A stretch of DNA of 64,000 nucleotides from Salinivibrio sp. ES.052. Lineage in GTDB: Bacteria > Pseudomonadota > Gammaproteobacteria > Enterobacterales > Vibrionaceae. Numbering within the stretch: position 1 is the first letter of the stretch; each line of letters opens with the position of its first letter. The notes beneath the pieces were generated by a model. That model did not search any database, had not been told where the DNA came from, and worked only from the letters and a program-made list of their open reading frames with translations. The position numbers and the translations under genes were made by a program. This document shows positions 8,179 through 44,443 of this stretch, in pieces. Where the stretch lies: contig NZ_FSRI01000003.1 in the NCBI RefSeq assembly GCF_900141775.1, positions 62,001 through 126,000 of the forward strand. Reading direction: 5' to 3'.

Positions 8179-8180
8179 TC

Positions 8181-10826: not shown

Positions 10827-10864
10827 AGGGACACCTAGTTCTAATCAATATAATGTTGTTCGGC

Positions 10865-11635: not shown

Positions 11636-12969
11636 CAATCTCTTATTGCCCAGAATTGAATATCAAGATCGTCAAATGCTGCCGCTACATGGAACGCAAA
11701 ACCACTAGAGTTTGCTAACATTGACCAAGCGGCGCTTTCTTTATCCAGCTGATAATAGGTATAACCTGCATGATAGGGCAGCTGACGCGGCGCAACCGGT
11801 AGAGGGATAAGCGGGATACCCGGCAGTTGCAAAGAGATCAGTTCGCGAATTTTCTCAACAGAAGAAACCTTGGTTTGCTGAGTGAACAATCGTCGTAATT
11901 CGTCTAACGGCATGCGTGCCTTCACGGCAACAATAAACTCAGCCGACTCCATTAATTGCGGATCTTGAACTGGTGCCACCATCAGGCCGTAGCTACGCTT
12001 ATCGAGCTGAATAGATACTGCACGAGGCTCTAATACCACACTGAGACTCTGGCGTAAGAAACGAATGACTGGCCAAAATGCATCACCAGGCATATCGTGA
12101 TTATAAGCGGGCATCGCTGGAGCAAGTCGGCTTTCATCGGTAAAGGTTGCCAATTCTCCACAAATTGACGATAAACACTCATACAGGCGTTCAGGGTGCA
12201 AGCTGCCTAACGATGCAAGGTGTTTCATTTGCGGATAAAGGCGGTTTAGCGAGTGCAATAACATAAAGTCTGATACATCCGCGACACCGCCTTGAGAAGG
12301 GGAGCTAATACGTTGAGCGATGTTTTTGGCGCGTTCCTGCATCAATCCGGCCATTTCGTTGATAAAGCGGTGCAGTGTTGCATTGCCCGCCACATTGAAA
12401 TGACAAGGAATAAAGTCTTGATCCAGAACCACACTGCCGTCGGGACGCTTTTCAGAAATACGCGCGATAGGGATCGCCGCATAAGCGCTGCGATCTTCTT
12501 TCTCCAGCATCAACTGCAAGTGCACTGGTGACACGTCTAACGTGGTCGTATCGCCCTGAATACTTTGCACATCACGCACATCAATACGACGACTTTCATA
12601 GCGACCTGAACCTTTTTCTTCTGGCCAGTTTACTTCCATAATCGATTCACTACGTAAAGGAATCGCGAGGTATATTAGCTGGTTAGAGAGAGAGCCATCT
12701 TCTATCTCAAGCGCGTCAGGCATAACATCTTCTTGAGGAATGCGGAATGCCGTTCCATCTGGCATCACGCCCACCGCTCTCTCTATCGCAATTCGACCAA
12801 ACGCTAGATACTCTGGATTTAGTGACAATTCAGCAATGCCATACAAATATTTGCTTATTGAAGTTAATCGCTCTTCCAATAAGTATTCACTGTAACGTTG
12901 GTGCTGCTGAAAGTGCTGAGGCTTAATAAAGAGTCCTTCGCTCCATATCACCCGGTTACGTGCAAACAT
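11635..12969 (-). CDS. tssK: T6SS baseplate protein TssK (VasE)
   Basis: A 444-residue TssK protein, the baseplate adaptor that links TssF/TssG wedges to the TssM-TssL membrane complex. The N-terminus VIWSEGLFIKPQHFQQHQRY is a clear family signature, with the conserved WxEGxFxxPQHFQQ pattern. Length is standard. The ATG at 12969 lies 5 bp after the tssJ stop, and the stop overlaps the start of tssL, so translation of the J-K-L trio is probably coupled. Confidence 0.97.
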   Translation of the reverse strand: MFARNRVIWSEGLFIKPQHFQQHQRYSEYLLEERLTSISKYLYGIAELSLNPEYLAFGRIAIERAVGVMPDGTAFRIPQEDVMPDALEIEDGSLSNQLIYLAIPLRSESIMEVNWPEEKGSGRYESRRIDVRDVQSIQGDTTTLDVSPVHLQLMLEKEDRSAYAAIPIARISEKRPDGSVVLDQDFIPCHFNVAGNATLHRFINEMAGLMQERAKNIAQRISSPSQGGVADVSDFMLLHSLNRLYPQMKHLASLGSLHPERLYECLSSICGELATFTDESRLAPAMPAYNHDMPGDAFWPVIRFLRQSLSVVLEPRAVSIQLDKRSYGLMVAPVQDPQLMESAEFIVAVKARMPLDELRRLFTQQTKVSSVEKIRELISLQLPGIPLIPLPVAPRQLPYHAGYTYYQLDKESAAWSMLANSSGFAFHVAAAFDDLDIQFWAIRD

Positions 12970-12974
12970 TAGTT

Positions 12975-13451
12975 TTACTCTACCTTTTCTAATTTCACGT
13001 CATAATCTTTGAAGAGCATAAGCAAATGATACTCTCGGCCTTTATTTAATACTTTGACGACTTTCTTCCACTCGCCCAAGTTAGGCTCAGAAAAATACGC
13101 CATGACACCGATGTAATTTGTGTCTTCATTGATCTCAAATGCATTGACAAACTTGAATTGACCTGGTGTCAGCACATAATCATAGTTATTAATAAAATTA
13201 CTACTAATCGCATCTTCATAATCCGTTCGTAATTGGTCAAACCCCGCAGACATGAACATAGAGTCATCTTCCAGTTCAAACACCTGTACTTCTATTGGCA
13301 CCGAGTCACCCGTGATATTTGGGTTAACTCCCTCATCGCTCACTAAGCTAAATGTTACAGTTGTTGGTCGCTCTTCAGGTTGATATTCATCTGAAGAACT
13401 ACACGCTGTTAATACCAAAATTACGCACAAGATACCTAATTTCTTAAGCAT
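12975..13451 (-). CDS. tssJ: T6SS outer-membrane lipoprotein TssJ (VasD)
   Basis: A 158-residue lipoprotein with a signal peptide ending in the lipobox LTAC at residues 14-17, followed by SSS. The residue after the lipid Cys is Ser, so outer-membrane sorting is expected. The mature part is the compact beta-sandwich of TssJ/VasD, which docks on the periplasmic end of TssM. The ATG at 13451 is 2 bp after the fha stop, and tssK begins 5 bp after its own stop. Confidence 0.93.
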   Translation of the reverse strand: MLKKLGILCVILVLTACSSSDEYQPEERPTTVTFSLVSDEGVNPNITGDSVPIEVQVFELEDDSMFMSAGFDQLRTDYEDAISSNFINNYDYVLTPGQFKFVNAFEINEDTNYIGVMAYFSEPNLGEWKKVVKVLNKGREYHLLMLFKDYDVKLEKVE

Positions 13452-13453
13452 GA

Positions 13454-14920
13454 TTATCTCTCCAGTTGTTTTTCACGAATACGCTTGTCATACACCTGCT
13501 CAAATATTTCCCAAAAGAGCTTAGAAAACCCTTGCTGACGGTTAGAGGTTAGCTCTCGGTAGTAATTGCAGTACATTTCCCATGCCCACGCGGATTCACC
13601 CTCTTCATGGGCATCCGTATTACGTCGGCAATGCTGGAAACGTCGTAATAGCACGTCAGGAGAGAATGCATTGAGAATTTGATCAAGGGCTTCTGATATT
13701 GCATCCTGCGTTGCTTCATTATGATCTCTTACATTTTTTAAACTTTCAGCAATTGCCGCAGGGGCTGAAAGATGTACTAGACTTTTATCTGCGTCATACA
13801 TCGTTCCAACTGTCTCTTCATAAGAGAGCCCAAGCCGTAGTGGGTTATCTTCAATAGGCTGTAGGTTACGGTTCATCGTACCAAAGCGTCCCTCTGCTGC
13901 TTGTTCGTGCAAAGCCAATAGGCCTTTTAAACATGCCTGAAGAGACTGTCCCATCTCCTGTGAGAGGAAATGCATCCTTTGAACATCTTGTTCATTGCTC
14001 ACTCGAACCCCGAGGCCCTCTAGCATCGGACCCGTTAATAAATGCTTGCCATGTCCGGCACTTTCATTTGACGGGGACGGATCATTGTTCAAACTCTTAG
14101 CCACTTCTTGCTCGAGAAGTCCTAGCTCTTTTTCATCCATTGGCTTCGTCTCACTTTCTGTCAACGTGGAAGGCATATGATGGGCTGCCGTTTCAATTGA
14201 TTGTGCATCCAATACCTTTTCATGTGTTTTGTGGCTGGTGTTCTGCTGCTTTCTCTGACCAAAACCAAAAATACGTTTCAACCGAACAGACGCAGACATG
14301 GTATCTTCGCTATCCGCTTGTGGCGTAAAAGATGGACCTTTTCCTGTAAGGTTTTTCTTTGAGATAAGGCCGCTATCATTCGCGTTCTCTGATAGATCAT
14401 TACCCAACAGCCAGTTTGTACCCTGCGCTTCTACTTTTGCTTCTAATTCGACCAGAGGATCAATGGGGGCTGATGCATCCTCAAGCTCTAGCTCGTGGTC
14501 AACAGGCTCATGTCCATTGGCCAGTAAGTCGGTATGGTGACCATCAAAAAGCGTATCAATATGGCCGGTATCTATCTCACCATCCTCTCCAGTCAACACA
14601 CGTATTTCATACGGGCCTATTTGCATTTCATCTTTGTGTGCTAAGCGTGCTAGTTGGCCCTTACCAAGCGGCATATCAGCACCATTAACAAACGTTTGTC
14701 CACATCCATCCCGCACGCAGAAAGCACCGTCTACGACCAAAATTTCACAGTGCAAATCATGGACTCGACCCAACCGATCTTTCAATCGCCAACTGGCTGA
14801 AGGCGATGAACCAATAGTCCCACCAGATTCCACAAAACGAATCTGAGCGGATAAGCCTGATTCCAACGTTTGAGCATTGGCAATCACAAGTACTATGCCA
14901 TTTTGATGTTGCGAGACCAT
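13454..14920 (-). CDS. fha: T6SS FHA-domain protein (Fha/TagH)
   Basis: A 488-residue protein with an N-terminal forkhead-associated domain (about residues 25-110; see GSSPSASWRLKDRLGRVHDLHCEI) that recognises phosphothreonine. A long low-complexity acidic linker covers about 110-270, and the C-terminal TagH-type helical domain covers about 300-488. FHA proteins act in post-translational control of T6SS, often with a PpkA/PppA kinase-phosphatase pair; no such pair is in this window. The start ATG is 2 bp after the tssG stop. The linker will be the most variable part between strains. Confidence 0.93.
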   Translation of the reverse strand: MVSQHQNGIVLVIANAQTLESGLSAQIRFVESGGTIGSSPSASWRLKDRLGRVHDLHCEILVVDGAFCVRDGCGQTFVNGADMPLGKGQLARLAHKDEMQIGPYEIRVLTGEDGEIDTGHIDTLFDGHHTDLLANGHEPVDHELELEDASAPIDPLVELEAKVEAQGTNWLLGNDLSENANDSGLISKKNLTGKGPSFTPQADSEDTMSASVRLKRIFGFGQRKQQNTSHKTHEKVLDAQSIETAAHHMPSTLTESETKPMDEKELGLLEQEVAKSLNNDPSPSNESAGHGKHLLTGPMLEGLGVRVSNEQDVQRMHFLSQEMGQSLQACLKGLLALHEQAAEGRFGTMNRNLQPIEDNPLRLGLSYEETVGTMYDADKSLVHLSAPAAIAESLKNVRDHNEATQDAISEALDQILNAFSPDVLLRRFQHCRRNTDAHEEGESAWAWEMYCNYYRELTSNRQQGFSKLFWEIFEQVYDKRIREKQLER

Positions 14921-14922
14921 GT

Positions 14923-15924
14923 CTATTGCCTTACTTGAATTAATACACGCTTATCTTGCAAATCTTCACCGAGAAAAGATGTCCACCCCAGCGCGACTTT
15001 TTTCCCTAACTGAAGCGCGGGCGTCTCTTCATCCATCATCGACAACTCTAAATCGAATGCCATCTGCTCTCGCAAAATGAATTCAACTAATTTACATAAA
15101 GGCTGATACTCTTTACCTACTGGTAAAAAGTCGTCAAAACGCTCCCTAGTTAACTCTTTGATACAAATGATAAATTTTCCATTACAGTCAAAAACTGTCT
15201 CACCAATCACAGTATCTTCACCTAACCGACCATTCATACAGCCAAGAGACATTTGCTGATCTTTCGCAATCTTTACTTTGCGCGTGACCCATTGACGAAT
15301 TTCTACCTGCTCAAGATCGAAACAATGAGCGATAATGCCAGCAACTACTGTAGGTGAACGGCTTCGCCCCGCTAACGTGCCAGCATACGCCAGCATCTTG
15401 CACCAGTTAATCGGCGTCTCACCACGCAGCTGCGTATCACCAAGGCCCACTAAAGCAAATAGCTGTGCTGAGAATTGGTCCTCAGCACCAGGCTGAAATC
15501 TCACGTAGTAACGGTATTTGCGCCAGATCCGATACACCAAAGCGATCAATCGGTTGTTAAAAAAGTCCAAAAATGGTCTTTTAATTCCGCCAGGCTCTTC
15601 ATGGAGAAGTTGCTCAGTGATAAATGCTGGTAAAGGCGACTGTGATCCTGCAAGACCTAAGAAATTCGTAAGCACTACCGTGTGATCATTGACTTGATCA
15701 AGCGATGCTATATCTGACGCAGCAAACCCAAGGCTTGGGTTGGCACTGAACACCAACTGGCATTCACGCTCCCACTCTTCTTCCTCTGGATTAAGCCCTT
15801 TGTACTTTTGTAAAAGCTCAACTAATTGGAAAAAGCTATACACTCTCGCATCTTGAACAAGATCAGCCGCACTGGGTGCCAACTCATCTAGATGAGTGGT
15901 TGCATCCCGACTCTCGTCTGCCAT
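14923..15924 (-). CDS. tssG: T6SS baseplate protein TssG (VasB)
   Basis: A 333-residue TssG/ImpH protein, a baseplate wedge subunit that binds TssF and TssK. The conserved motif FLGLAGSQSPLPAFITEQLL is the TssG hallmark. The ATG at 15924 lies inside the end of tssF, an overlap of 37 bp in another frame, consistent with translational coupling. Length and composition are normal for the family. Confidence 0.95.
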   Translation of the reverse strand: MADESRDATTHLDELAPSAADLVQDARVYSFFQLVELLQKYKGLNPEEEEWERECQLVFSANPSLGFAASDIASLDQVNDHTVVLTNFLGLAGSQSPLPAFITEQLLHEEPGGIKRPFLDFFNNRLIALVYRIWRKYRYYVRFQPGAEDQFSAQLFALVGLGDTQLRGETPINWCKMLAYAGTLAGRSRSPTVVAGIIAHCFDLEQVEIRQWVTRKVKIAKDQQMSLGCMNGRLGEDTVIGETVFDCNGKFIICIKELTRERFDDFLPVGKEYQPLCKLVEFILREQMAFDLELSMMDEETPALQLGKKVALGWTSFLGEDLQDKRVLIQVRQ

Positions 15925-17657
15925 GTATAGGTCTCGTTATTCGTTGTGTTGATAACGGTAAGCTCATGAAAAGAATTAATACTCGCGTATAACGAGAAAA
16001 AGTGGCTGAGCACCGTTCCAAATAAATATAAATCGCCTTCCGAGCCAAAACCGTCTTGATTGAGATAAATCGTGGACTGCAAACCTCGAACCGGCATGCC
16101 ACGTAATAACTTATCCATGGGCTTGGATTGAATATCTTCAATCGCGTCTAGGCGTTTCTTACCCACTCGCTCTGCTTGACGATCCACCAACGCACGAAAA
16201 TCATAAGCGGTTAATACACAGCTCAATGCGTCTTTTGACAGGAGCGACAAGTAATTCAACGATAAATTAGAAATCAACATCCATAGCAAGCTGCCATCCA
16301 GCACAGGCCTCAATGCTTGCGTTGGGATTGTAATATTTTCGAACTCTGCAAATGGCGGTGAACTGTCCGTTGGATAGCAAATATCTCCGACACCTAAGTC
16401 CAATGGAAGTTGACGATTTGTGCAGGTCAGCTTAATTGACACCGCCTCATCGACATCGACGGATGCTGACTCATCCCCGCGAATAAACGAGATAAAAGAA
16501 TCAAAACCATCCCCGCGAATGCTGTTTTTCACCCGTGAGCGGTAATAAAGGGTTTCTCGATTACGCACCCGCTCTACTTCATGTTGAAAGCTCTCAAACG
16601 GGGTATAAACCCGCTTTTGACCACGTACCGGTTTACCATCAATGACTTTGTCTTGCCGACCCGTGACGCTATCAATACTGAACACTTCATAATGGGCTGG
16701 CTTACCGCTTGATGGAATAACTTTGTATTCAGTGCTCTTTCCGGTGAGATCGATCGGGTCTGCGTCATGATCAAACAAGTTAATGACGGGGGTGCAATAG
16801 AGCTGAAAGCTCTCTGATCTCACTCTGACATCTGACGGCAACGTTTTAGACAAATGTAACTGCACCGTAAACTGGCCGTAGACATTGTTCGGTATTGCCT
16901 TATCTAAACCGCTAATATCAAAGAAATGAAACGCTTCAGGAAATGACAAATATTCCTGCAAAACACGATAACCGTCGTAAACATTTTGTGGATAGGGCAA
17001 TAGACCATCGCCAGGATTAAATCCAACCGATGAAAACGCATCTCTTGGTAGCGAGAACTCAGTGCCATCGACGTGTACCGTGAGTTTTTCGAGATGATGA
17101 CTCAGCCACAAATAGATCATTTGTGCGCTATATTTATCACCACCAATGTAAAAACGCAGCGTGTTGATATTGGCATCTCTTACCGACATATCACCGTCTA
17201 AGGTCATTTGCAGCTGAATTGTCGTCGCTTCACGTGTGTGTTCAGCGTGAACGTTAGAGCAATACAGAGGGTACAACTCAACCTCTCGGCAAGTTTGAAA
17301 GCGACACTGGGTTTCCATAACAGGCTTACTGTCAAGCTCCGTCCCCTTAGCAACAACTTGCTTTTCGCTCAAACTCCCTTCTGGCTTAAATTGTGCGATG
17401 CACATACTCGGTACTGGGCGCAAATAGTTGGGCCAGAGCATATTGATAATCGAGTGAGTAAGCTCAGGAAAATCATCATCTACTTTTTCACGCAATTTAC
17501 CGGTTAAAAACGCGAACCCTTCCAACAAACGCTCTACGTCTGGATCTGTGTGTCGACCATGTAAGAAACGTGCGAGTTGAGGATGCAGCTCAGTAAAAGC
17601 TTTACCTTGCTCTTTTAAAAACGCGAGCTCTTCTCGAAAATACTTGTCTTGCGTCAT
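15888..17657 (-). CDS. tssF: T6SS baseplate protein TssF (VasA)
   Basis: A 589-residue TssF/ImpG protein. The N-terminus is the family signature (YFREELAFLKEQGKAF, then DPDVERLLEGFAFLTGKLREK). Two TssF per TssG form the baseplate wedge. The ATG at 17657 is 5 bp after the tssE stop; the 3' end overlaps tssG by 37 bp. No damage seen. Confidence 0.96.
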   Translation of the reverse strand: MTQDKYFREELAFLKEQGKAFTELHPQLARFLHGRHTDPDVERLLEGFAFLTGKLREKVDDDFPELTHSIINMLWPNYLRPVPSMCIAQFKPEGSLSEKQVVAKGTELDSKPVMETQCRFQTCREVELYPLYCSNVHAEHTREATTIQLQMTLDGDMSVRDANINTLRFYIGGDKYSAQMIYLWLSHHLEKLTVHVDGTEFSLPRDAFSSVGFNPGDGLLPYPQNVYDGYRVLQEYLSFPEAFHFFDISGLDKAIPNNVYGQFTVQLHLSKTLPSDVRVRSESFQLYCTPVINLFDHDADPIDLTGKSTEYKVIPSSGKPAHYEVFSIDSVTGRQDKVIDGKPVRGQKRVYTPFESFQHEVERVRNRETLYYRSRVKNSIRGDGFDSFISFIRGDESASVDVDEAVSIKLTCTNRQLPLDLGVGDICYPTDSSPPFAEFENITIPTQALRPVLDGSLLWMLISNLSLNYLSLLSKDALSCVLTAYDFRALVDRQAERVGKKRLDAIEDIQSKPMDKLLRGMPVRGLQSTIYLNQDGFGSEGDLYLFGTVLSHFFSLYASINSFHELTVINTTNNETYTWQTRVGMQPLI

Positions 17658-17662
17658 GCGGT

Positions 17663-18100
17663 TTACAACACTCGATATTGGCGGTTCTGGTCTAAAAGCA
17701 AGCTAAGTTGAACTTTCTCGTGGAGCGCTTCGCTATTAACGGTGGCAACAATGTTGAACCGCAGCATGAGTGGTGAGTGCGGATCAAAATCTGATGTCAC
17801 TAAAATATTGGTAAGCCGCGGCTCATATTTTTCCAAACACTCTTTAATTGCGAGTTTCACCCTCAACGATAAGTCTAAACTTTCGAGCGTGGCATCATTG
17901 AAGTCAATTAAACCTAAACCCGGTGAGCTTTGGGCGCCACCCACGCGAGTATTCAACACATTTGCAATGTTGCGTTTAATCGATCTCACGACATCTGGAC
18001 TACTCGGGCCTTGAGTTATAGACACGGGTTTGGCGTCGGCTTCAAGGCGCTCCAAGAAACCGACACCAAATGCACTGTCTTCTAGCGCAACGTATGCCAT
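17663..18100 (-). CDS. tssE: T6SS baseplate protein TssE (gp25-like)
   Basis: A 145-residue gp25-like protein, the small baseplate component that starts sheath polymerisation. The core RSIKRNIANVLNTRVGG plus the following Glu-rich and DF region correspond to the T4 gp25 lysozyme-like fold. The ATG at 18100 is 2 bp from the vipB stop, so vipB-tssE-tssF form a tight unit. Confidence 0.94.
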   Translation of the reverse strand: MAYVALEDSAFGVGFLERLEADAKPVSITQGPSSPDVVRSIKRNIANVLNTRVGGAQSSPGLGLIDFNDATLESLDLSLRVKLAIKECLEKYEPRLTNILVTSDFDPHSPLMLRFNIVATVNSEALHEKVQLSLLLDQNRQYRVL

Positions 18101-18102
18101 GA

Positions 18103-19575
18103 TTACTGATCAAGCCTACCAACAAGAGACAGTTCGAAGTTCGCACCCATATATTTAAAATGAGGGCGAACAGACAAAGATACCTGATACCAACCAGGGT
18201 TACCTTCCACATCACTCACTTCGATTTTGGCGGCACGAAGTGGTCGACGGCTACGCACGTCTGCTGGTGGGTTTTCTTGATCAGCAACATATTGCTTAAG
18301 CCAAGTGTTTAGCTCGCGCTCAAGGTCTTGTCGCTCTTTCCAAGAACCAATTTGCTCACGTTGCAGCACCTTGATGTAATGCGCGAGGCGATTAATAATC
18401 ATCATGTAAGGAAGCTGTGTACCAAGCTTGTAGTTCGTCTCTGCTTCTTTACCTTCTTTGGTATTTGGGAATACCTTAGGCTTCTGAATGGAGTTAGCAG
18501 AGAAGAACGCAGCATTATCACTGCCTTTTCGCATGGTCAGACCAATAAAACCTTCTTCCGCAAGTTCGAATTCTTTGCGATCAGTGATCAATACTTCAGT
18601 CGGGATCTTAGACTGTAGCGCCCCCATTGACTCATAAACATGAACTGGTAGATCTTCTACGGCACCTCCGCTTTGTGGGCCAATGATATTTGGACACCAA
18701 CGATACTTTGCAAAGCTATCAGTAAGACGCGTTGCAAACGCAAAAGCCGTGTTACCCCAGAGATAATGCTCGTGATCTTGACTAACATTCTCGTGATAAG
18801 TGAAAGACTTGATTGGGTTTTCTGTCGGGTCATATGGCACACGCAACAAGAAACGTGGCGCTGCTAGGCCAAGATAACGCGCATCTTCAGACTCACGCAG
18901 TGAGCGCCATTTAGTATATTTAGGGCTCTCGAAGATAGACTTAACATCTTTGATATTTGGAAGCTCTTCAAACGACTCAATACCGAAGAACTCAGGCCCT
19001 ACACTCGAGATAAATGGCGCATGTGCCATTGCCCCCAACGCACCCATATATTGCAGCAATTTCATATCTGGGGTAGAGGGTGTAAAGGCATAGTTACCGA
19101 TAATAGCGCCTGTTGGCTCACCACCAAATTGACCGTAACCTGACGAGTATACGTGCTTGTACAGACCTGATTGCGTTGTTTCTGGCGCGAATTCAAAGTC
19201 GTCTAACAACTCTTCTTTAGTTACGTGTAAGACATCAACTTTGTTGTTCTCGCGGAAGTCAGTGCGATCGACAAAAAGTTTAAGTCCACGCCATGCTGAT
19301 TCCATCTCCTGGAAAGAAGAGTCGTGCAAAACCTCATCCATTTGAGCACTGATCTTTTTATCAAGCTCAACAAGCATCTGATCAACAAGCGCTTTGTTGA
19401 CAGGTTCTTCGGTTTGGTTGTTACCAACTAGATTTTCAATAAAGGCTGCAACACCTTTCTTCGCGACATCATAGCCCTCTTCGCTAGGCTCAATACGCGT
19501 TTGCGCCATGATTTCGTCAAGTAAGCCACCTTCCTTGACTTCAGGAGACTCTACTACTGATTCACTTGTAGACAT
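18103..19575 (-). CDS. tssC: T6SS contractile sheath large subunit VipB (TssC)
   Basis: A 490-residue TssC/VipB protein that forms the contractile sheath with VipA. The region ESAWRGLKLFVDRTDF and the stretch PTGAIIGNYAFTPSTPDMKLLQ are typical. Family length is about 490, so it is complete. The ATG at 19575 follows the vipA stop by 43 bp. The highly conserved sequence makes this a very safe call. Confidence 0.98.
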   Translation of the reverse strand: MSTSESVVESPEVKEGGLLDEIMAQTRIEPSEEGYDVAKKGVAAFIENLVGNNQTEEPVNKALVDQMLVELDKKISAQMDEVLHDSSFQEMESAWRGLKLFVDRTDFRENNKVDVLHVTKEELLDDFEFAPETTQSGLYKHVYSSGYGQFGGEPTGAIIGNYAFTPSTPDMKLLQYMGALGAMAHAPFISSVGPEFFGIESFEELPNIKDVKSIFESPKYTKWRSLRESEDARYLGLAAPRFLLRVPYDPTENPIKSFTYHENVSQDHEHYLWGNTAFAFATRLTDSFAKYRWCPNIIGPQSGGAVEDLPVHVYESMGALQSKIPTEVLITDRKEFELAEEGFIGLTMRKGSDNAAFFSANSIQKPKVFPNTKEGKEAETNYKLGTQLPYMMIINRLAHYIKVLQREQIGSWKERQDLERELNTWLKQYVADQENPPADVRSRRPLRAAKIEVSDVEGNPGWYQVSLSVRPHFKYMGANFELSLVGRLDQ

Positions 19576-19618
19576 GTTTCTATTTCCTAAGGCTTAATTT
19601 ACTACTGGTTTGAATCAA

Positions 19619-20128
19619 TTACTCTTTCGGAGCATCGTCGTCACTACTGACCACATTCAGTTCAGCAAGCAGTTTTTCGCGCGATTCTTCAGAGTTAAGC
19701 AGCTCCTGCAGACGATCACGAAACGCAGGAATATTACCAAGAGGTCCTTTCAACGCGACAAGCGCTTCCCGAAGCTCTATCAATTTTTTCAGCTCTGGAA
19801 CTTGGGCAGCAATAGAATCGGGGGCAAAATCATTCATTGATTTAAAAGACAACTCCACAGGGAGCTCTGCATCTTCATCATCGGCAAGTCGATTTTTTAC
19901 AGTGGTGGAAAGACGTAAATTGCTTTCACGCATTACATCTTCAAAATTGTTTTTATCTACCGAAACTGTTGCACGCTCCTCTACAGGCGTATCTTCTGTA
20001 TGCCCCTTAAAGTCACCAACAACCAAAGTTTTTAGTGGGAGCTCTACTTCTGCTTGCTGATCACCCGTCGCGGGGACGTACTTGATATTAATGCGCTCTT
20101 TAGGCGCTACGCTTCCTTCTTTGGACAC
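19619..20128 (-). CDS. tssB: T6SS contractile sheath small subunit VipA (TssB)
   Basis: A 169-residue VipA/TssB protein. The start is GTG at 20128 (MSKEGSVAPKERINIKY), and this N-terminus agrees with my recollection of V. cholerae VipA almost residue by residue. A GAGGG sequence lies about 8 bases upstream. It is the first gene of the minus-strand T6SS operon, which then runs without interruption to the left edge. VipA wraps with VipB into the sheath and carries the ClpV-interacting surface. No hcp gene precedes it in this window. Confidence 0.97.
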   Translation of the reverse strand: MSKEGSVAPKERINIKYVPATGDQQAEVELPLKTLVVGDFKGHTEDTPVEERATVSVDKNNFEDVMRESNLRLSTTVKNRLADDEDAELPVELSFKSMNDFAPDSIAAQVPELKKLIELREALVALKGPLGNIPAFRDRLQELLNSEESREKLLAELNVVSSDDDAPKE

Positions 20129-20730
20129 TTTGAACCCTCGATACCTTCACCAAAATGACAGCACAGCCAGGAGTGACCCTGTCACGCTGAACTGCGTTAA
20201 CATCTTAAAAACATCAATGACTCGCTGTGCTGCTATCACTGACGGTGCGCCAGCATACATAACGAAAAATTAGACATTAATTAAAATTACACAATTTTGG
20301 AGCAATGCCTCATATTTGTATTTTATGTTCAAAATCCCACGAAGAATTGACACTTTGACATTTTCATGACATACGAAGTGTAATGATTATTTTAGTGAGC
20401 AATAACTCTAAAACTAGAGTAAACATGCTAATTTTAATTGAGAAAAAAATGACAAGACAAGCGGTTGAATCGTTAAAATACCAACATATTATTAATAGAT
20501 AAGCATGAGTCAATGCGTAGAACTGGTAGCACATCCGCTGATATGTAACCTCATCCACCTCGCTACGCCCTTCTTACTTACTAACAGAAGTGTGAATAAG
20601 AATAAATTAAGAGGAAGCAAATAAGGACACGGTGTGATCCTCGCAGCATTACTGCATCGGCATGGATAATGTTATGTGCGCAGGATCATTTTAATCTTAT
20701 CCGTCGAGTTCGTCCTTCCCCCTATTGCTC
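20129..20730. other. AT-rich intergenic region upstream of the T6SS operon
   Basis: This stretch separates the start of the T6SS operon from the chemoreceptor promoter. It is clearly AT-rich between about 20270 and 20480 and has no convincing gene on either strand. It must contain the T6SS operon promoter, but I cannot assign -35/-10 boxes with confidence and see no good sigma-54 element. Silencing by H-NS-type proteins would fit the AT content but is only a guess. Confidence 0.5.
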
Positions 20731-20787
20731 TCCTCCTTATAATCCCCCACTAAGGAGGATGTGCCCTTTTCTTAATTAAGTAACACT
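20731..20787 (+). promoter_or_regulatory. Predicted MalT-dependent promoter of the chemoreceptor gene
   Basis: Two inverted GGAGGA cores, TCCTCC at 20731-20736 and GGAGGA at 20754-20759, stand 17 bp apart. GGAGGA fits the MalT box core GGA(T/G)GA. The downstream copy reads GGAGGATGTGCC, exactly the 12-mer also found in front of malK (32955-32966). The hexamer AACACT at 20782-20787 could be the -10; its centre is 28 bp from the box centre, placing the box at about -37.5, the usual MalT position. The same inverted layout recurs upstream of malP. Sequence pattern is seen; MalT control is inferred. Confidence 0.65.
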
Positions 20788-20914
20788 AGTGTCACTTATC
20801 GTCTCTGTCGGCGCGCTACCGGTTGTGCCATCACTCTTCGCACGACGCCATTGTCTCGCCACTCGACGACTCAGAGTATTTCTTTGTGCGGTTTTCTTTG
20901 TGCGGATAGTGATT

Positions 20915-23002
20915 ATGAAAAAGTTGCGTACCCTTTCTATAAGTCAACGGATAAGCTTAGCTGCCTCATCCATCGTCCTGATCGGTCTTGGAGCAGTGAG
21001 TGCCGTTTCCTTGTCAACGCTGAATAGCAGTCAGTCAGCAATGTCATCCCAGGTCACTGAAAACGTAAAGCGTGATCAAGTGATTAAGATGCAAAATCGC
21101 GCGACCGCGATTAGCGAGGAGATCCATGCGTATATTGCCTCTCCTCTCGACACGGTGCGAACTATCGCTCAGATTTATACCTCCGAAGCGGAAAAAAATA
21201 AGTCAGCACGGATCCTCGACCGAGATGATATACCTCGGATCATGTATTCGATTTTGAAACGCCAACCTGAATGGCACAACATCTACACCGAGTGGCAAAA
21301 AAACGTGTTGGGCGCCGATGCTTTTTACTACGGCGACCCAACAAGCGCTGTAGATGGCCGCTATGTGCCGTCGGTGTCGGTAGATGAGAGCGGGGAAATG
21401 CGCCTTACCGCTGCGCAAAATTTCTCTGAAACCAATCCTTGGTATCAATGTCCGGTGAACACACAAAAAGATTGTATCACCGACCCGAGAACCGCTGAGA
21501 TTAATGGCAAAACCCAAACGGTGTTTGATGTGACAACCCCCGTTTTCCGTTTCGATAAAACCGTTGCCATGGTGGGTAGTACATTGACTACAGCACAAAT
21601 CCAGTCCATTCTGGCTAAACGTGCCGACAGTAACGGTAAGCTGTTTGTTGTCAGTCAAAATGGCCGAATCGTTGCTAGCACCGATCAACAAGTCCAGCAT
21701 GGTGCCGCGGTCTCCAAACTATCCTCTCCCGCGTATCACTCTCTTGCCAAGCTTCAAAAGCAAAGCCATAAAAGCCAATTCAAACAAACCGATTCGCACT
21801 TTTATGTGTCGCAACCGATCGAATTTGGCAATATGTCTCAGACGTGGTCAGTGATGATTGTGACCCCCAAGCAGGCCGCGATGGCCCCCGTCACACAGCT
21901 GAATCAAATGATGACAGACGCCGAAAGCGATATTCAAAACACCATATATTGGGTGAGTGGCCTCGTGCTTCTGCTGGCCTTTGTGATCATTCAAATCGTT
22001 ATCAAACGTCAATTAGCACCGTTGAGTAGCGTCGAGCAATCGATTCAAGCGATAGCCCAAGGTGGTGGCGATTTAACGCAGCGTTTGTCGGTTAATGGTA
22101 AGACAGAGATTGATCGTATTAAACACTCAGTCAATCATATGTTGGATGCGCTGCAATCGATGGTGGGACAAATTCAACAAGCAGGTGGGCGCTTATCCGA
22201 CACATCAACGACAGCCAATAACGCCATCACCGATGCCCACCAAGCCCTGTCTGATAATACCGAGACACTACACCAAGCCGCGACCGCGATGGAACAACTG
22301 ACCGCGACCTCAAAAGATGTGGCAACCAACTCTGAAGCCTCAAAAGAGAAAAATACCGCAGTGGTTTCATCGCTGAATCAATGCATGGAGAATGTGGCTA
22401 ACAATGTGGCACGTAACCAAACCGCCAACACAGATCTGCAAAAAGCCAACAGTTTTGTCAGCGAAGTCAAAGCCAGTGGTAGCGATATTGCCTCTCTACT
22501 CGACGACATTCGCGGCATTTCAGATCAAACCAACTTGCTAGCGCTCAATGCCGCGATTGAGTCGGCACGCGCCGGTGAGGCTGGCCGAGGGTTTGCGGTC
22601 GTCGCTGACGAGGTACGTGCCTTGGCCCAGCACTCACAAAAATCTGTCGACCAAATCGTATCGACGCTTGAAACCTTCAACCAACTCCTTACCGATATTG
22701 AAGCTGTCATCCAACAAGGTGAGCGTGGTGCGGCGGAGGGTTATCAAGCGAGTGTTTCCGTGCAGGAGACCTTAACCGAGATTGTTGATTTGGTGCAGCA
22801 GCTAGGCGATATCAATTACCAAACCGCAGGCGCGGCGGAAGAGCAAAGTGCAGTCTCTCGGCAGGTGGCTGAAAACATCCAGGCACTGTCACAACGCATA
22901 GAACAAACCTTGTCACTCAGTGAGCAAGCGCAAGGCGCAAACCAAACCCTCAACCACGAGGCCAAAACGATTCGCCAACTGGTCGATACGTTTACGGTCT
23001 AG
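20915..23002 (+). CDS. Methyl-accepting chemotaxis protein (dCACHE-type sensor)
   Basis: A 695-residue chemoreceptor counted from the ATG at 20915 ([15 protein letters not shown]); the open frame continues upstream but that part looks non-coding. Membrane helix 1 covers about residues 12-32, a large periplasmic sensor of Cache type about 35-340, helix 2 about 345-366, then HAMP and a long signalling coiled coil. The kinase-contacting tip ([20 protein letters not shown]) lies near residues 535-560. The C-terminus ends LVDTFTV, without a CheR-binding NWETF-type pentapeptide. The gene faces malM across a shared terminator and has MalT-like boxes 150 bp upstream, so maltodextrin sensing is a reasonable but untested role. 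Confidence 0.95.
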
Positions 23003-23105: not shown

Positions 23106-23933
23106 TTACTTCTTGTCTAATTGTGCTTTCATCGCGTCACGAAAGACTTGGTCAGCGTCAGTAATACCCAATTGCTCCGCATCACGCAGCAATCCCATTG
23201 CTTTGTCGACATCATTGTCTGCAATGGCGGCCCGAATAGCCTGGTGATAAAAACTAACGCTTTCTTGTTGCGGGCGTTCAGTGGCGGAGAGCGCTGGTAG
23301 GATTGTAGACTGAGCCTTGTTACGTGCGCCCAATGCGGTTGCTTCGATGGAAAACGTGCCAGTCAACGCGCGCGGCACTTGAATATCGCCTACTTCGGGT
23401 AAGTAGTTACCTCTTCCCTCTGCGTCCAATTTCGCTGGGTGGCTAACCGCCACCGTTTCATTAAGTTTATCTTTATCGGTAAAAATAACCAAATAGAGCG
23501 AACTGTCGCCAATTTGTGGATGGACTTTAATATTCCCTTGCAAACGGTTTCCATCGGCTAGACGGGGCTTTAGATAGACCAACCCCTCATCATCAAGCTC
23601 AGCACGAATATCGCCAGACTGGTTAATGACTTTAGCACTTGGGACAAAAACACTATCGTTGACTTCTGCCTCAATATTGATAGCTAATCCATTTTTTACC
23701 ATAGGCAAGTCGAAAATGACGCCAGGGCTATCAATGCTATAGATATCGAGGACTTGTGTTTGCGCGGTGACCGCTATTTTTATCTCTTTGTCCATTTTTA
23801 TCGGCAGTTGTTTCGCTTTTTCAATCTGCGTCACTGCCTTTCCTGTCGGTGCAACCTTATATTGGTTATCAACGAACGTCGAGCACCCACTAAGTAATAA
23901 TAGCCCAGAAACAAATAACACTTTCTTATTCAT
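23106..23933 (-). CDS. malM: Maltose regulon periplasmic/lipoprotein MalM
   Basis: A 275-residue protein with a lipoprotein signal (KKVLFVSGLLLLSGCS, lipobox LSGC). MalM is a maltose-regulon protein of unclear function, conserved downstream of lamB in enterobacteria and vibrios. I chose the ATG at 23933 (MNKKVLF) because AGGTG lies about 8 bases upstream; the frame could extend to a GTG at 23942. The C-terminal third contains a repeat-like helical segment (DNDVDKAMGLLRDAEQLG). It follows lamB by 63 bp, with an attenuator-like hairpin in between. Confidence 0.9.
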   Translation of the reverse strand: MNKKVLFVSGLLLLSGCSTFVDNQYKVAPTGKAVTQIEKAKQLPIKMDKEIKIAVTAQTQVLDIYSIDSPGVIFDLPMVKNGLAINIEAEVNDSVFVPSAKVINQSGDIRAELDDEGLVYLKPRLADGNRLQGNIKVHPQIGDSSLYLVIFTDKDKLNETVAVSHPAKLDAEGRGNYLPEVGDIQVPRALTGTFSIEATALGARNKAQSTILPALSATERPQQESVSFYHQAIRAAIADNDVDKAMGLLRDAEQLGITDADQVFRDAMKAQLDKK

Positions 23934-23943
23934 GTAAAACACC

Positions 23944-23996: not shown

Positions 23997-25172
23997 TTAC
24001 CACCAAGCTTCCAATTGCACACCCGTTACGAACTCTGAGTCACCCTTGTCACCAAACGTATCTCCTTCTTCATCCGTAATATACGTGCCGTAGAAGCGAA
24101 TTTCAGGACGCGACCAGAAGCTGTCACCCATTGCCCATGCTTGAGCTAGAGTAAACTTGTGGCCTCCTTGGTCTGTTCCTTGATTTTCGCCATCAAAGAA
24201 GCCGACCTCACCAATGGTGCGCATCGTATCGTTCCACTTATAAACAGGGCGCACAACTGCAGTGAACATATCAGAGTCACCCTCACCATCGGTCAAATCC
24301 GACCCATTGTGATAAGAAAGCTGATGTCCGAGTTCCATTGACGACCCAACATTCATCACACCCCAGTTGATAATACGATAGCCTTGCGCATCGTTTTTAT
24401 CGTCTGAACCACGGTTGTACCATGCACCAGACCCAAAGCCAGCAATCTGATCACCGTACCCTGCAGAGCCATATTGCAAGATTGTTTGGTTGAAGCCATT
24501 GTCCATATTCTGATGCACAATACCGGTTAGCATAATACCATCATCAGCGGCTTCGGTTTGGTCATCTTTTTCTGTTGCAAAGTTATAGGCCGTGGCAAGC
24601 TCTAAGCTAGCGTCTTCCCACAAGCCAATATTGGCTAAACGTGCATCAAAAATATAGCCTGAAGACTGATCATTTTCTCCATCTTGAACAAACGCTAAAG
24701 AAAGCTTTTGGTCGCCCAATGAAATATTTTCGATACCACCACCGGTACCTGACGTATTCAAGAAATAGAAGTCAGTAATGTGGATGTCTTTACGTTGATA
24801 ATAACGCTTACCCGCCCAGATAACGGCTTCAGGGTCAGATGCAATCACACCTTTGGCTTGGACATTAAATTGCGCGACATTAATCTCGCTATCTTCCCAA
24901 CCATTTTGACCTTTGTCGCTAGAGGCAATCATCGATTCCAGCTTCCATGATTGCTCTCCGGTTTGAAGCTCCTCTGAAAAACCGAACTCGTAGTAGTTAT
25001 CGTCTTCGTTACCCAAACGACCAACTTTATTCTTTTCAAAAGCACTATCACCTGCACCATCACCACCGATCGCAGCACCCGCACGAGCATAACCATTAAA
25101 ATCGACAGCGAACGCTGAGGTGGCAGTGACAGCAGCTGCGACAGCCGCCGCAATTAAACTTACTTTTCTCAT
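23997..25172 (-). CDS. lamB: Maltoporin LamB
   Basis: A 391-residue outer-membrane porin with a signal peptide (MRKVSLIAAAVAAAVTATSAFA) and mature start VDFNGYARAG, which is the family beginning. The C-terminus QLEAWW ends in an aromatic residue, as outer-membrane barrels do. Acidic loops rich in D, E and G suit a halophilic or marine lifestyle. It is shorter than E. coli LamB, as is common in vibrios. LamB admits maltodextrins through the outer membrane to MalE. The promoter region carries several MalT-type boxes; the nearest (GGATGA) sits about 37.5 bp before the predicted start of transcription. Confidence 0.95.
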   Translation of the reverse strand: MRKVSLIAAAVAAAVTATSAFAVDFNGYARAGAAIGGDGAGDSAFEKNKVGRLGNEDDNYYEFGFSEELQTGEQSWKLESMIASSDKGQNGWEDSEINVAQFNVQAKGVIASDPEAVIWAGKRYYQRKDIHITDFYFLNTSGTGGGIENISLGDQKLSLAFVQDGENDQSSGYIFDARLANIGLWEDASLELATAYNFATEKDDQTEAADDGIMLTGIVHQNMDNGFNQTILQYGSAGYGDQIAGFGSGAWYNRGSDDKNDAQGYRIINWGVMNVGSSMELGHQLSYHNGSDLTDGEGDSDMFTAVVRPVYKWNDTMRTIGEVGFFDGENQGTDQGGHKFTLAQAWAMGDSFWSRPEIRFYGTYITDEEGDTFGDKGDSEFVTGVQLEAWW

Positions 25173-27591: not shown

Positions 27592-28359
27592 TTAGGCCAG
27601 CTCCAGTAGCTGGCCTTTTTTATTATGCACCTGATTGGGGGTTGCCATACTTAAACTTAGGTGCGGTCTCATTTCGTTGTATATCGCTATCGATTCTTTT
27701 ACCAGTATTTTAAGCTCTGTCAGTGTCTTACACCGGTACAGTAAAAACTCATGCTTCAGTATGCCATTGACTCTTTCCGCTAACGCGTTTTGGTAGCAAT
27801 CATAACCATCCGTCATCGACGGCTGGATTTGACTCTCCTGTAGCGCACTCTGATAAACGGCTGAGCAGTATTGCGAACCTCGGTCTGAGTGATGTACCGC
27901 ATTGCCGATATAGCGCTTATCTTTGACGGCCATTTTCAGCGCTTTCACTACATTGTCGACTTTCATATCTTCGCTAACGTGATGACCCACTATCTTGCGT
28001 GAGTTGGCATCGGTCACCAGTGACAGATAGTGCACACCTTGGTCTGATTCAACATAAGTGATGTCGCTGACCAGTACATGCGCAGCATCATGCAGTCCGT
28101 CTTCTTTTAGCAGGTTAGGATGCTTCTTCATCCAGTGCTTACTACACGTAGTTTTTGTGTAGCTTTTCTTGGGTTTAACCAGTAAGCCTTCGCTTCTCAG
28201 ATAGCTAAAAAACCCGTCTCGCCCTAGCTTAATTTCGTGTTCAACTAGCTTGGGCTTTACCAACGCGTAGAGCTTACGCGCCCCTAACCTCGGCATATAC
28301 TTACGCCAGTATTGGACCCAGTCTCTGATGATTGATAGTTCAGCTCTTCGGCTTTCCAT
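27592..28359 (-). CDS. IS3-family transposase OrfB (DDE catalytic subunit)
   Basis: The ATG-started frame gives 255 residues with the integrase core: Asp in VSDITYVE, Asp in HHSDRGSQY and Glu in QNALAERVNG. The same frame is open further upstream, overlapping the end of orfA, so the natural product is most likely an OrfAB fusion made by -1 frameshifting at A_AAA_G (28433-28437). The upstream residues in that frame continue as a HTH_21-like stretch (CRATGISRQGVYQAV). No internal stop or frameshift was seen. Confidence 0.93.
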   Translation of the reverse strand: MESRRAELSIIRDWVQYWRKYMPRLGARKLYALVKPKLVEHEIKLGRDGFFSYLRSEGLLVKPKKSYTKTTCSKHWMKKHPNLLKEDGLHDAAHVLVSDITYVESDQGVHYLSLVTDANSRKIVGHHVSEDMKVDNVVKALKMAVKDKRYIGNAVHHSDRGSQYCSAVYQSALQESQIQPSMTDGYDCYQNALAERVNGILKHEFLLYRCKTLTELKILVKESIAIYNEMRPHLSLSMATPNQVHNKKGQLLELA

Positions 28360-28424
28360 TCGAGCAACGGCTTGATAGACACCTTGCCGAGAAATGCCTG
28401 TGGCACGACATGCCGCCGCTAACT

Positions 28425-28820
28425 TTATTTTACTTTTGGCTTTGGCTTGCCAGATGTACCGGATAAGTACTTTTTTCTGAGGCCGGCTCCGTACTCATTG
28501 TCCATGATATCGACCATACCATTGAGGATTTGGTTACGCAGTTTCTCTTCGGCTAACTCACGCTCAAGGCGCTTGATAGTTTCGGATGGGGTTTCTTTTG
28601 AATGTGGCATAAGGGGATGCTGAAATGGCTTCGACCAATCGAGTCTACCATGTTTTCTGAGCCAGACGAGTACCGTTGAGCGGCCCTGAATGCCAAAACG
28701 GGCTTGAGCTTGTTTGTACGTCATTTCGCCTTTTTCAACACGCTCTACAACGCCTAATTTAAAGGCTAAGGTGTAATCACGTTGCGTGCGCTTACGGCTT
28801 GAATTACTTGATGTTGTCAT
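28425..28820 (-). CDS. IS3-family OrfA (DNA-binding subunit)
   Basis: A 131-residue OrfA with a helix-turn-helix of the HTH_28/transposase_8 type (YTLAFKLGVVERVEKGEMTY, then AQARFGIQGRSTVLVWLRKHG) and a leucine-zipper-like segment (ETIKRLERELAEEKLRNQIL). It binds the IS ends and forms multimers with OrfAB. The A4G slippery tract lies just before its stop codon. Confidence 0.92.
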   Translation of the reverse strand: MTTSSNSSRKRTQRDYTLAFKLGVVERVEKGEMTYKQAQARFGIQGRSTVLVWLRKHGRLDWSKPFQHPLMPHSKETPSETIKRLERELAEEKLRNQILNGMVDIMDNEYGAGLRKKYLSGTSGKPKPKVK

Positions 28821-32699: not shown

Positions 32700-32988
32700 G
32701 GATGAGCTGTATTTCACGGTCTATCATGGGTAATTCCCGTGCATTCCTCATCATCCTGGCTTCTACGCCCTACGCCTGTGCGAGCGAATTCGTGATCCAT
32801 ATCGCTCGTCGCTAATGATGCGGTTCACAAAAATAAACGGTACGTGATCAACTTCAACTAATTTGCTGGTAATTTTGTGATGTACGCCCTCAAATGAGAT
32901 CAAGGTGAAGATTATCCTCCTCCCCGCCTACTCCCCCCGTAATAATTTTACCCGGGAGGATGTGCCGATTGCACAGATACGCGACACT
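32700..32988. promoter_or_regulatory. malE-malK divergent control region with MalT boxes
   Basis: Within the 500-bp gap 32657-33156, minus-strand GGATGA at 32751-32756 pairs with CATGAT (32723-32728) as a malE -10, centres 28 bp apart. For malK, plus-strand GGAGGA at 32955-32960 (in GGAGGATGTGCC) pairs with GACACT at 32983-32988, again 28 bp. Further boxes are GGATGA on plus at 32700-32705 and two overlapping GGAGGA on minus at 32915-32923. A possible weak CRP site (AATGA-N6-TCACA) lies at 32814-32829. The layout resembles the cooperative MalT/CRP region of E. coli malEp/malKp. Confidence 0.65.
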
Positions 32989-33156
32989 GCCTGTCATCAA
33001 AAAAGCATCGGGTGGAAGTTATCCAATGTGCTTAATCAATGACCAAATAGCGTTCAACAAAAACGATAACGCTCAAAAATGGCCGATATTGAATAACACA
33101 GCCACCTATAATGCGTATTGAGCCGAATTAATGAAAAGCGATTGAGGGCGAGCGAC

Positions 33157-41270: not shown

Positions 41271-41328
41271 ATCCTGCCCAACCCGCGCACGGCAAACATC
41301 CTCCTACCCCATTCCCATCAAAGGAGGA
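41271..41328 (-). promoter_or_regulatory. Predicted MalT-dependent malP promoter
   Basis: Minus-strand GGAGGA at 41299-41304 (within AGGAGGATGTTTGCC) and plus-strand GGAGGA at 41323-41328 form an inverted pair 18 bp apart, the same arrangement as before the chemoreceptor gene. CAGGAT (41271-41276, minus) is 28 bp from the proximal box centre and would be a weak -10 with the key A2 and T6. Confidence 0.65.
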
Positions 41329-41734: not shown

Positions 41735-44443
41735 ATGTGGATCCCATCAAAGCTGACTCGGCCTGGGCGGCTCTATAACGCAATATTACGCCCGCGGGTA
41801 CTCGATATTTTACAACAAGCCCCCCACTATAAACTGGTACTGTTTCGCTCCCCGGCCGGCTACGGCAAGACCACCATGGCCGCACAATGGTTGGCCGATC
41901 AGCCCAATGTTGGTTGGTTTAGCATTGATGACAGTGATAACGACAGCTTTCGCTTCATTAACTACTTACTGCAAGCCTTGCACCAAGCGACCCAAGAGGG
42001 TTGCGCCAACACGATAAAACTGGCGGAAAAACGCCAATTCTCGTCGCTTCGTGCGCTCTTGTCTGATGTCTTTGCTGAACTGACTGGGTTTCATGCCACT
42101 AGCTATTTGGTTCTGGATGACTATCAGCTGATTGATAACGAAGAGATCCATGAGGCGATGCGCTTTTTCATTAAGCATATGCCAGATAATCTCACTTTGG
42201 TGGTCACCTCACGCGCCAACCCTCCACTCGGTACCGCGAATTTACGCGTACGCGATTTGATGATCGAGATAGGTAATCAGCTTCTCGCCTTCGATAACGA
42301 AGAAACGACCCGCTTTTTCAATCAGCGCGTCGACGATGGCGTGGATAAATCCACGGCTAACGCCTTATGCACCTACGTTGAAGGTTGGCCCTCTGCCTTA
42401 CAGCTGATTGCGATTCAAGCTCAGCACCAAAAGCGCACGCTGATGCAAAGCGCAACATCTTGTGAAAAGTTTAACCATGCCCACCTTTGGGACTATTTAG
42501 CCGAAGAAGTCTTCGATTTGCTTGACACTGAGACGCGTCAGTTTCTGATGAAAGTTTCTGTGTTAGAGATGTTCAATGATGAACTGGTTTTCGCATTGAC
42601 TGAGAGAGAAGATGCACTGGGCATGCTTGAGTCACTGAATCGTTATGGCTTGTTTATTTACCCGCTTGAAGGTGATAACAACTGGTATCGATTCCACCAT
42701 CTATTCGCGGAGTTTTTGGCTCATGAGCGCCAAGCACGGATACCTCACCAACAACAGCCCTTGCACCGACAAGCCGCACTGGCATGGTTGAAGTTACAAT
42801 CCCCTCATCAAGCGTTACGTCATGCAGGCTACGCCAAAGACGATACATTGCTAGCCGATATCCTCAATCAACACGGCTGGCGTATGTTTAATCGTGGTGA
42901 ACTCTCGACGCTAGAAGCCGCGATGACCAAGCTCACTGACGAACTTTTATACCCATACCCCAATTTAAGCCTACTGCGTGCTTGGTTGGCACAAAGCCAG
43001 CACAGGTATCATGAAGTCGGCGAACTGTTAGCCAACGCAGAAAAAGCCTATCAATCCCGTCAAATCCCGCTCGATATCGATTACCAAGGCAATGCCAATG
43101 CTCTGCTTGCCCAAGTGGCCATTAATGCGAATGAGCCGGAACAAGCGATGCGGCTAGCAGAAAAAGCGCTCGAACAACTCGATAGTGCCAATTACCGCGG
43201 GCGTATAGTCGCTACCTCGGTCGTGGGTGAAGTGAATCATGTGCTCGGTGAGCTGGATCGCGCCCTGTCCATGATGCAGCAGACTGAAAAGCTGGCGCGG
43301 CAGCATCAAGTTTATCACCAAGCACTTTGGGCGATTTTACAACAAAGTGAGATATTGCTAGCACAAGGCTACGTGCAAGCTGCGTTTGAATTGCTGGATA
43401 ACGCCGATCAGCTCATTGAAGATCAACAACTGCATCAGGTTCCCCTCCATGAGTTCGCTTTGCGCCTTCGTGCACAAATCTTGTGGTGCTGGAACCGGCT
43501 TGAGGAAGCCGAAGCCTGTGCTTACAAAGGGCTACAGGTTCTGGAAAATCAACCACCAAGCAAGCATTTGCATAGCTATTCGATGCTCGCACGTGTCGCT
43601 GTTAGCCGCGGTGAGTTAGATAAAGCGGCGAAAAGCATTGAGCACATTGAGCACCTTTTGCGCGAGTCGGTTTACCATGTTGATTGGACCGCCCACGCAT
43701 CATTGTCGCTGTTGCTCTATTGGCAAGCCAAACATGAACTCACCAACATGGATGAGTGGCTACATCAAGCTGTTCGCCCTGTCACCGCCTGCAATCACTT
43801 CAGCCAGCTTCAATGGCGAAATATTGCCCGCGCCCACCTGCATTTGGGTCAGTATGACCAAGCACGTCAAGCGGTTGATTTTCTGCGCCGCGAAGCGAAC
43901 AGAGCCAATTTGGTGACGGATAAAAACCGCAATTTGATTGTTGAAGCCGTCCTTGCCAGCAAAGAACAAGAGACAGAATACGCCAAAAGCCTCTTGCAAG
44001 ATGCGCTGATCCTCACCAATCAAACTGGGATGATGGGGAACTTTTTAATCGAAGGTGATGCGCTCTCATCCTTGCTGCATGCGCTGATTGAACAACAAGC
44101 CCTCGGCGCATTGGAACGCCATCGGGCACAACAGCTATTGAAGGAAATTGCCAGCCATCAACGCTCTCGTTCAACGCACTTTGATGAAGCCTTTGTCGAA
44201 AAGCTGGTCAACCACCCTAACGTGCCAGAGCTCGTGCGAACCAGCTCATTGACACAACGCGAGTGGCAAGTGCTCGGCTTAATTTATTCAGGCTTCAGTA
44301 ACGAGCAAATTGCTCATGAACTTGATGTTGCCGGCACCACTATCAAAACGCACATCCGTAACCTTTACCAAAAGCTGAATATTGCGAACCGTAAAGAAGC
44401 CGTTATCACCGCTGAAAACCTACTGCAGCTAATGGGTGGTTAG
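41735..44443 (+). CDS. malT: Maltose regulon activator MalT
   Basis: A 902-residue LuxR/STAND ATP-dependent activator, nearly the length of E. coli MalT (901). The ATG at 41735 gives [13 protein letters not shown], close to the E. coli start MLIPSKLSRP; AAGGA lies 9 bases upstream. The longer frame from 41645 is rejected. Walker [10 protein letters not shown] is at residues 39-47, Walker B in [11 protein letters not shown], then the helical-repeat (MalT TPR) sensor domain and a C-terminal LuxR helix-turn-helix ([20 protein letters not shown]). It is activated by maltotriose and ATP in known relatives and binds GGA(T/G)GA boxes, which abound in this locus. Confidence 0.97.

Follow-up and report, generated by a model that had tools for sequence, protein, structure and literature searches.

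A double-Cache chemoreceptor gene of the Salinivibrio maltose cluster with a probable MalT-activated promoter

In Escherichia coli, maltose uptake is linked to chemotaxis through the receptor Tar, which works through the maltose-binding protein MalE, has a four-helix sensor and is not itself known to belong to the MalT regulon; maltose chemotaxis depends on that regulon only via MalE. Promoters of the regulon usually have a MalT box centred near -37.5. The activator MalT is switched on by maltotriose (PMC4381067), and in Vibrio tasmaniensis measured expression of malK, which has a putative MalT box at its promoter, is dependent on both maltose and MalT (PMC8265627). A loose parallel for a chemoreceptor gene going with a sugar-use pathway is mcpNag of Shewanella, listed in the GlcNAc/chitin pathway with nagR as regulator (PMC2996990), which differs from the present case in both sugar and regulator. 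Among the matches listed from literature searches for a receptor linked to MalT or maltose, none described a chemoreceptor within the MalT regulon. The locus described below resembles the MalT regulon of E. coli and the P1 promoter of Vibrio malK in the presence of an activator gene in the locus, the GGAKGA boxes, the spacing from box to -10 element and the extended GGAGGATGT form of the box, and differs from them in that the MalT-type promoter precedes a chemoreceptor gene. Likewise, it is reminiscent of the Tar/MalE system in its link between maltose uptake and chemotaxis, but its sensor is of the double-Cache type and its promoter of the MalT type, in contrast to Tar, which has a four-helix sensor and is not known to be under MalT control.

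The window (the whole 64-kb stretch of DNA that was analysed, from the salt-loving bacterium Salinivibrio sp. ES.052) contains a maltose cluster with malM, lamB, a glgX-type debranching gene, malG, malF, malE, malK, glgB, malQ, malP, malT and a pullulanase gene. The names malF, malG, glgB and malQ were assigned by eye, and that of malE, coding for a solute-binding protein, from its place; for malP and the glgX-type gene, the score with the best equivalog model falls just short of its cut-off. The coordinates of the principal genes confirm the gene order reported in the first-pass annotation, namely a receptor followed by malM-lamB:

20915..23002, + strand: methyl-accepting chemotaxis protein, 695 aa, at one end of the maltose cluster and convergent with malM
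23106..23936, - strand: malM (PF07148), convergent neighbour of the chemoreceptor gene
23997..25172, - strand: lamB maltoporin (PF02264; NF006860 above cut-off)
41735..44443, + strand: malT, presumed activator (NF003420 MalT equivalog, 1342.9 bits against a cut-off of 537)

Thus, the genome possesses a MalT gene, as identified by the equivalog model, as would be expected for a MalT-activated promoter. Other elements of the neighborhood, recognized by eye, are a type VI secretion cluster upstream of the chemoreceptor gene (6598-20128) and an IS3-like transposase pair (27592-28820) between the glgX-type gene and malG; the distance between these two genes is about 90 bp in three further Salinivibrio genomes (G009, G033 and G043).

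The region upstream of the chemoreceptor gene and the reference sites in the same cluster have the following elements:

20731..20736, - strand: distal MalT-type box GGAGGA, inverted, kept in all seven congeners having the gene
20754..20765, + strand: proximal MalT-type box GGAGGATGTGCC, with GGAGGA at 20754-20759; its exact genome copies are this one and that of malK
20781..20787, + strand: likely -10 element TAACACT, assigned by sequence, with AACACTAG invariant in seven species
20794..20914, + strand: predicted 5' untranslated region, its start near 20794 placed from a box centred at -37.5
32955..32966, + strand: malK proximal box GGAGGATGTGCC, reference site, with the same 12 letters as the chemoreceptor proximal box
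41293..41304, - strand: malP proximal box GGAGGATGTTTG, reference site, with GGAGGA at 41299-41304
41323..41328, + strand: malP distal inverted box, reference site, at a gap of 18 from the malP proximal box

The inverted GGAGGA pair described in the first-pass annotation is indeed present before the chemoreceptor gene, and the gap between its two boxes is 17 bp; the layout said to be the same as that of malP is therefore matched to within 1 bp and not exactly (17 versus 18). Two further likenesses claimed there, to malK, were recovered without any deviation: the 12-mer is identical in the two proximal boxes, and ACACT starts 29 bases past the start of the box at both the chemoreceptor (20783) and malK (32984). 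Centre to centre, the proximal box is 27-28 nt from the likely -10 element, depending on whether this is read as TAACAC or AACACT, a distance that fits a box centred near -37.5. By sequence, the promoter thus combines a proximal GGAKGA box with a -10 element about 27-28 nt downstream, and has more than one MalT box, the inverted pair being found in all seven species having the gene. No ordinary sigma-70 match was recovered at this promoter, and its GTAACACTAG is in register (as counted by hand) with GTAAGAATAG of a malK promoter from another member of the Vibrionaceae (locus L086). The predicted 5' untranslated region is strongly conserved across species, yet contains frame-breaking indels, and its consensus fold showed no compensatory changes among 25 predicted pairs; a search for Rfam families gave no match across the whole window. 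Elsewhere in the cluster, the malK leader is roughly 160 nt long (32995-33156, from a predicted start), and the malK leader of Vibrio gives rise to the small RNA Vsr217 (PMC8265627). A weak CRP-like TGTGC-N6-TCATT is also found upstream of the distal box, at 20675-20690, and by eye is only loosely kept in relatives.

The window contains 67 GGAKGA strings where 50.2 +/- 7.2 would be expected, and a lone box is uninformative. The extended 12-mer GGAGGATGTGYC, expected about 0.74 times per genome from the base composition of the window, has two copies in the 3.57-Mb genome, those of the chemoreceptor and malK, which are 12.2 kb apart and both in the mal cluster. Inverted pairs with a gap of 11-26 were found at 21 places genome-wide, compared with 2 places when the control pattern, a reversed one, was used. 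Nine of these places are one identical 23-bp repeat, presumably from rRNA, and the remaining 11, counting two overlapping hits as one, comprise 3 inside the mal cluster and 8 at other sites; the pair alone is therefore not proof of MalT control. By a comparison of positions by eye, none of these 8 has a signalling domain of a receptor closer than 8 kb.

A weight matrix was built from 20 boxes, 14 of them preceding malK-like genes and 6 preceding malP genes, with chemoreceptor promoters excluded from the training. The boxes came from 101 loci centred on malM and at most about 20 kb long (L077, from the divergent congener G023, and L081-L180, from other Vibrionaceae genera), 19 being from three other genera and one from G023. 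In the window the chemoreceptor site ranks second, between malP and malK, both with the box alone (malP 18.9, chemoreceptor 15.8, malK 15.3, next 13.2) and with the box plus the -10 element (malP 25.4, chemoreceptor 20.2, malK 14.4, next 11.9), in a matrix whose sites were chosen by the pattern GGAKGATG, which confers a gain in score on any such string, and in which some of the malK-like genes may be paralogues. As a positive control, GGAKGATGT was sought within 350 bp upstream of those genes in the 101 loci that satisfied the thresholds for identity, coverage and length of upstream DNA: it precedes malK in 9 of 14 cases, malP in 5 of 6 and malE in 7 of 30, along with 1 of 47 lamB, 0 of 80 glgX and 0 of 21 pulA genes.

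Orthologues of the chemoreceptor are present in seven of eight Salinivibrio genomes, including the named species S. siamensis, S. sharmensis, S. socompensis and S. costicola, with the other six showing 86-99% identity in the sensor; the eighth genome (G023) is without the receptor and has lamB and a divergent malM (28% identical). The survey of the promoter in close relatives that the first-pass annotation had called for recovered the boxes in every species keeping the gene: the proximal box, AACACTAG and the distal inverted GGAGGA are retained in 7/7. The proximal box is separated from the closest inverted box by gaps of 17, 19, 18, 18, 17, 28 and 28, the last two being those of S. socompensis and S. 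costicola, and the spacings thus form two groups that differ by roughly one helical turn. Between species, turnover has affected the sequence on the upstream side of the proximal box, where the distal box lies. Thus, in S. siamensis the receptor is 99% identical and the promoter almost unchanged downstream from the box, while the DNA upstream differs, and despite this change inverted boxes are kept at gaps of 19 and 33. Shuffles of the upstream stretches gave P values of 0.007-0.041 per species for the distal box, values which are not independent as the species are related; taken by itself, this box is not rare.

The receptor gene directly adjoins malM in five of the seven species and is separated from it by inserted DNA in the other two. 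The insert of S. sharmensis carries a 1670-aa amylase-plus-pullulanase-like gene (L078:12043-17055), and that of S. costicola, roughly 10 kb long (L079:7700-16300), contains ORFs that by eye resemble integrases and helicases and is a likely integrase island. The lamB gene beside malM is 94-99% identical to that of the window in three genomes (G009, G033 and G043), with values of 62% in S. siamensis, 45% in S. sharmensis and 58% in S. costicola, and malM is steadier across species, at 79-96%. This sharp divergence of lamB beside a stable malM looks like maltoporin exchange (loci L039, L040 and L044); maltoporins are a known type of phage receptor. In two draft genomes malM is split into pieces (G038:C50:26680-27503 and G043:C86:2742-3573), through either sequencing error or decay.

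A search of the 101 malM-centred loci with a receptor profile built from six sequences, which may have missed some, recovered 19 receptor ORFs, 14 of them with 350 bp of upstream sequence. No GGAKGA was found within 350 bp upstream of 13 of these 14 receptors near malM in other Vibrionaceae, and the remaining one (in L110) has two GGATGA, at -280 and -6, which are not placed like promoter boxes. Given that such receptors elsewhere are without promoter-like boxes, closeness to malM alone means little; within this sample of receptors near malM, the predicted control by a MalT box is seen only in Salinivibrio. Likewise, phmmer recovered no match to the Salinivibrio sensor among the 19 ORFs. The receptors of L110 and L171 lie just downstream of malM, in an arrangement that at first sight suggests lamB-malM-receptor operons, and were ruled out as parallels because by eye they have other sensor types, along with no phmmer match and no promoter-like MalT box.

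The MalT control proposed in the first-pass annotation is thus well supported by a matrix trained free of receptors, by the genome-wide rarity of the 12-mer and by conservation in 7/7 species, and MalT control of the chemoreceptor gene appears likely, with high confidence. It would be set aside if the GGAGGA pair were there by chance and the receptor a constitutively expressed, mere neighbour of the cluster, as might be argued from the commonness of lone GGAKGA boxes, the inverted pairs at 8 additional genomic sites outside the repeat and the malM-near receptors elsewhere that are without promoter-like boxes. The rank of the site by the matrix, the rarity of the 12-mer and the retention of the boxes in all seven species despite turnover around the distal box argue against such a coincidence, and it is judged quite improbable. 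A different objection comes from the location of the distal box, which points leftward within an intergenic region shared with the type VI secretion genes that run divergently from the receptor (tssB side, start 20128), so that the boxes could serve these genes and not the receptor. However, the extended-match box and the -10 element point to the receptor, and tblastn searches of the six species with at least 3 kb of sequence upstream of the receptor recovered tssB/tssC-like genes there in two, the window and S. siamensis, and none in the other four (G018, G009, G033 and G038), in which both boxes are kept. Hence, the boxes travel with the receptor, and service to the secretion genes is judged very improbable.

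Turning to the protein itself, the chemoreceptor contains a HAMP domain (aa 362-414; PF00672, 2.3e-12) and an MCPsignal domain (aa 495-660; PF00015, 1.4e-33), both above cut-off, and hence the combination of HAMP and MCP signalling domains typical of methyl-accepting chemotaxis proteins. It is one of 39 places in the genome with a signalling domain over the family cut-off. It also has a large periplasmic sensor:

21014..21925, + strand: periplasmic double-Cache sensor region, approximately aa 34-337, limits estimated by eye

Comparison with solved double-Cache structures recovered 7prq as the best match, with a profile value of 3.8e-71 over the length of the sensor; by single sequence, aa 100-336 match 7prq with 4.4e-18 across both modules, indicating a double-Cache domain. 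The large Cache-type sensor of the first-pass annotation is thereby borne out, the Pfam match to PF22673 (PDC) being just below cut-off (24.3 versus 27). An AlphaFold model of the sensor made from five close sequences had a mean pLDDT of 54.4, with residues 46-195 of 316 under 50, a quality too low for comparing folds. Relatives at E 0.001 (20-31% identity) are distributed in 137 of 197 Vibrionaceae genomes, own genus included. At E 1e-22, among the first few candidates scored per genome, wider relatives were found in a single other genome among 394 of the order (25% identity) and, among 369 of the class, in none besides that of the window, and one genome of the family at 1.1e-23 is absent from the result for the order.

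The nearest solved relatives of the sensor are the amine receptors PctD, TlpQ and McpU (7prq, 6fu4 and 6f9g, of which we take 7prq to be PctD and 6fu4 to be TlpQ), which belong to the same sensor family. PctD residue numbers fit 7prq with a constant offset. In PctD, replacement by alanine of W155, F188, M215, D235 or R103 lowers choline binding 58- to 373-fold, and that of S217 lowers it 5-fold (PMC10104139). The Salinivibrio equivalents of W155, F188, M215, S217, D235 and R103 are S153, W176, V203, D205, T223 and R103, respectively, and the place of D133 is a gap in the alignment, so the sensor does not conform to the dCache_1AM amine motif formed by these seven residues. The changed residues T223, S153 and D205 are present in all seven Salinivibrio orthologues. 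Among 23 distant relatives, which are the best distant matches with loci given and not the full family, the T223 place is Asp in 23/23, the S153 place is Tyr in 22/23 and His in 1/23, and the D205 place is Ser, Thr or Asn in 23/23; given the Tyr instead of Trp, those relatives need not be amine receptors. The dCache_1AA amino-acid signature, with a positive residue two before the central W (in what we assume to be its exact position) and a final Asp, is likewise broken, with N174 and T223 at these places. Thus, the breaking of the amine motif in a receptor linked to maltose genes fits a change of ligand, without naming the new one. Judged from these residues, amines are unlikely as the ligand of the Salinivibrio sensor. 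A maltodextrin is plausible, with no evidence of sugar binding being found in the sensor sequence; that a maltodextrin binds the sensor directly, and that the receptor is dedicated to maltodextrins as put forward in the first-pass annotation, are tentative proposals.

Taking the promoter and the sensor together, the reading favored here is that of a MalT-activated chemoreceptor, which probably guides cells up gradients of starch-breakdown products. As the switch sequence is common to the receptor and the maltose-uptake genes, the sensor is probably made while the cell is using starch sugars. In such a scheme, intracellular maltotriose would cause MalT multimers to bind the inverted GGAGGA pair, with the proximal box standing in for a -35 element, and RNA polymerase would start near 20794 from TAACACT. 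The double-Cache receptor would then enter the chemotaxis arrays together with the induction of LamB, MalEFGK and the maltodextrin enzymes, and could lead cells up the gradient either by direct binding of maltodextrins or by docking of a sugar-loaded periplasmic protein.

Accounts of the input differ in how far they depart from known receptors. It is possible, if less than probable, that MalT sets only the timing, with the receptor sensing another signal, for instance one found with starch or an algal polymer; this would agree with the amine receptors being the nearest solved relatives and with the lack of a sugar-site mark in the sequence. The replacement of D235 by T, W155 by S and S217 by D at the equivalent positions in 7/7 orthologues speaks against an amine in this role, but leaves other ligands unaffected. 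Alternatively, the receptor might act through the maltose-binding protein in the manner of Tar, but using a Cache domain where Tar has a four-helix bundle, in which case co-regulation with malE could keep receptor and binding protein in step; this is regarded as rather doubtful. The first-pass view that the system differs from the Tar/MalE route therefore stands as far as the sensor is concerned, this being a double-Cache domain and not a four-helix bundle, and is less secure for the input, which may run by way of MalE. Equally speculative is the most far-reaching version of the ligand change, wherein a double-Cache receptor from a lineage related to amine sensors, having lost the amine-binding aspartate and a residue of the aromatic cage, turned into a receptor that is induced by MalT and senses maltodextrins directly. 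This would create a self-reinforcing loop in which the uptake of starch sugars installs a receptor that leads to more starch.

If the favored reading of a MalT-activated receptor guiding cells toward starch products is true, the placing of this receptor within the MalT regulon would make taxis toward these products inducible by sugar. It would also provide a concrete hypothesis about the ligand of a Cache receptor lacking one, and a clean test of ligand change in this sensor family.
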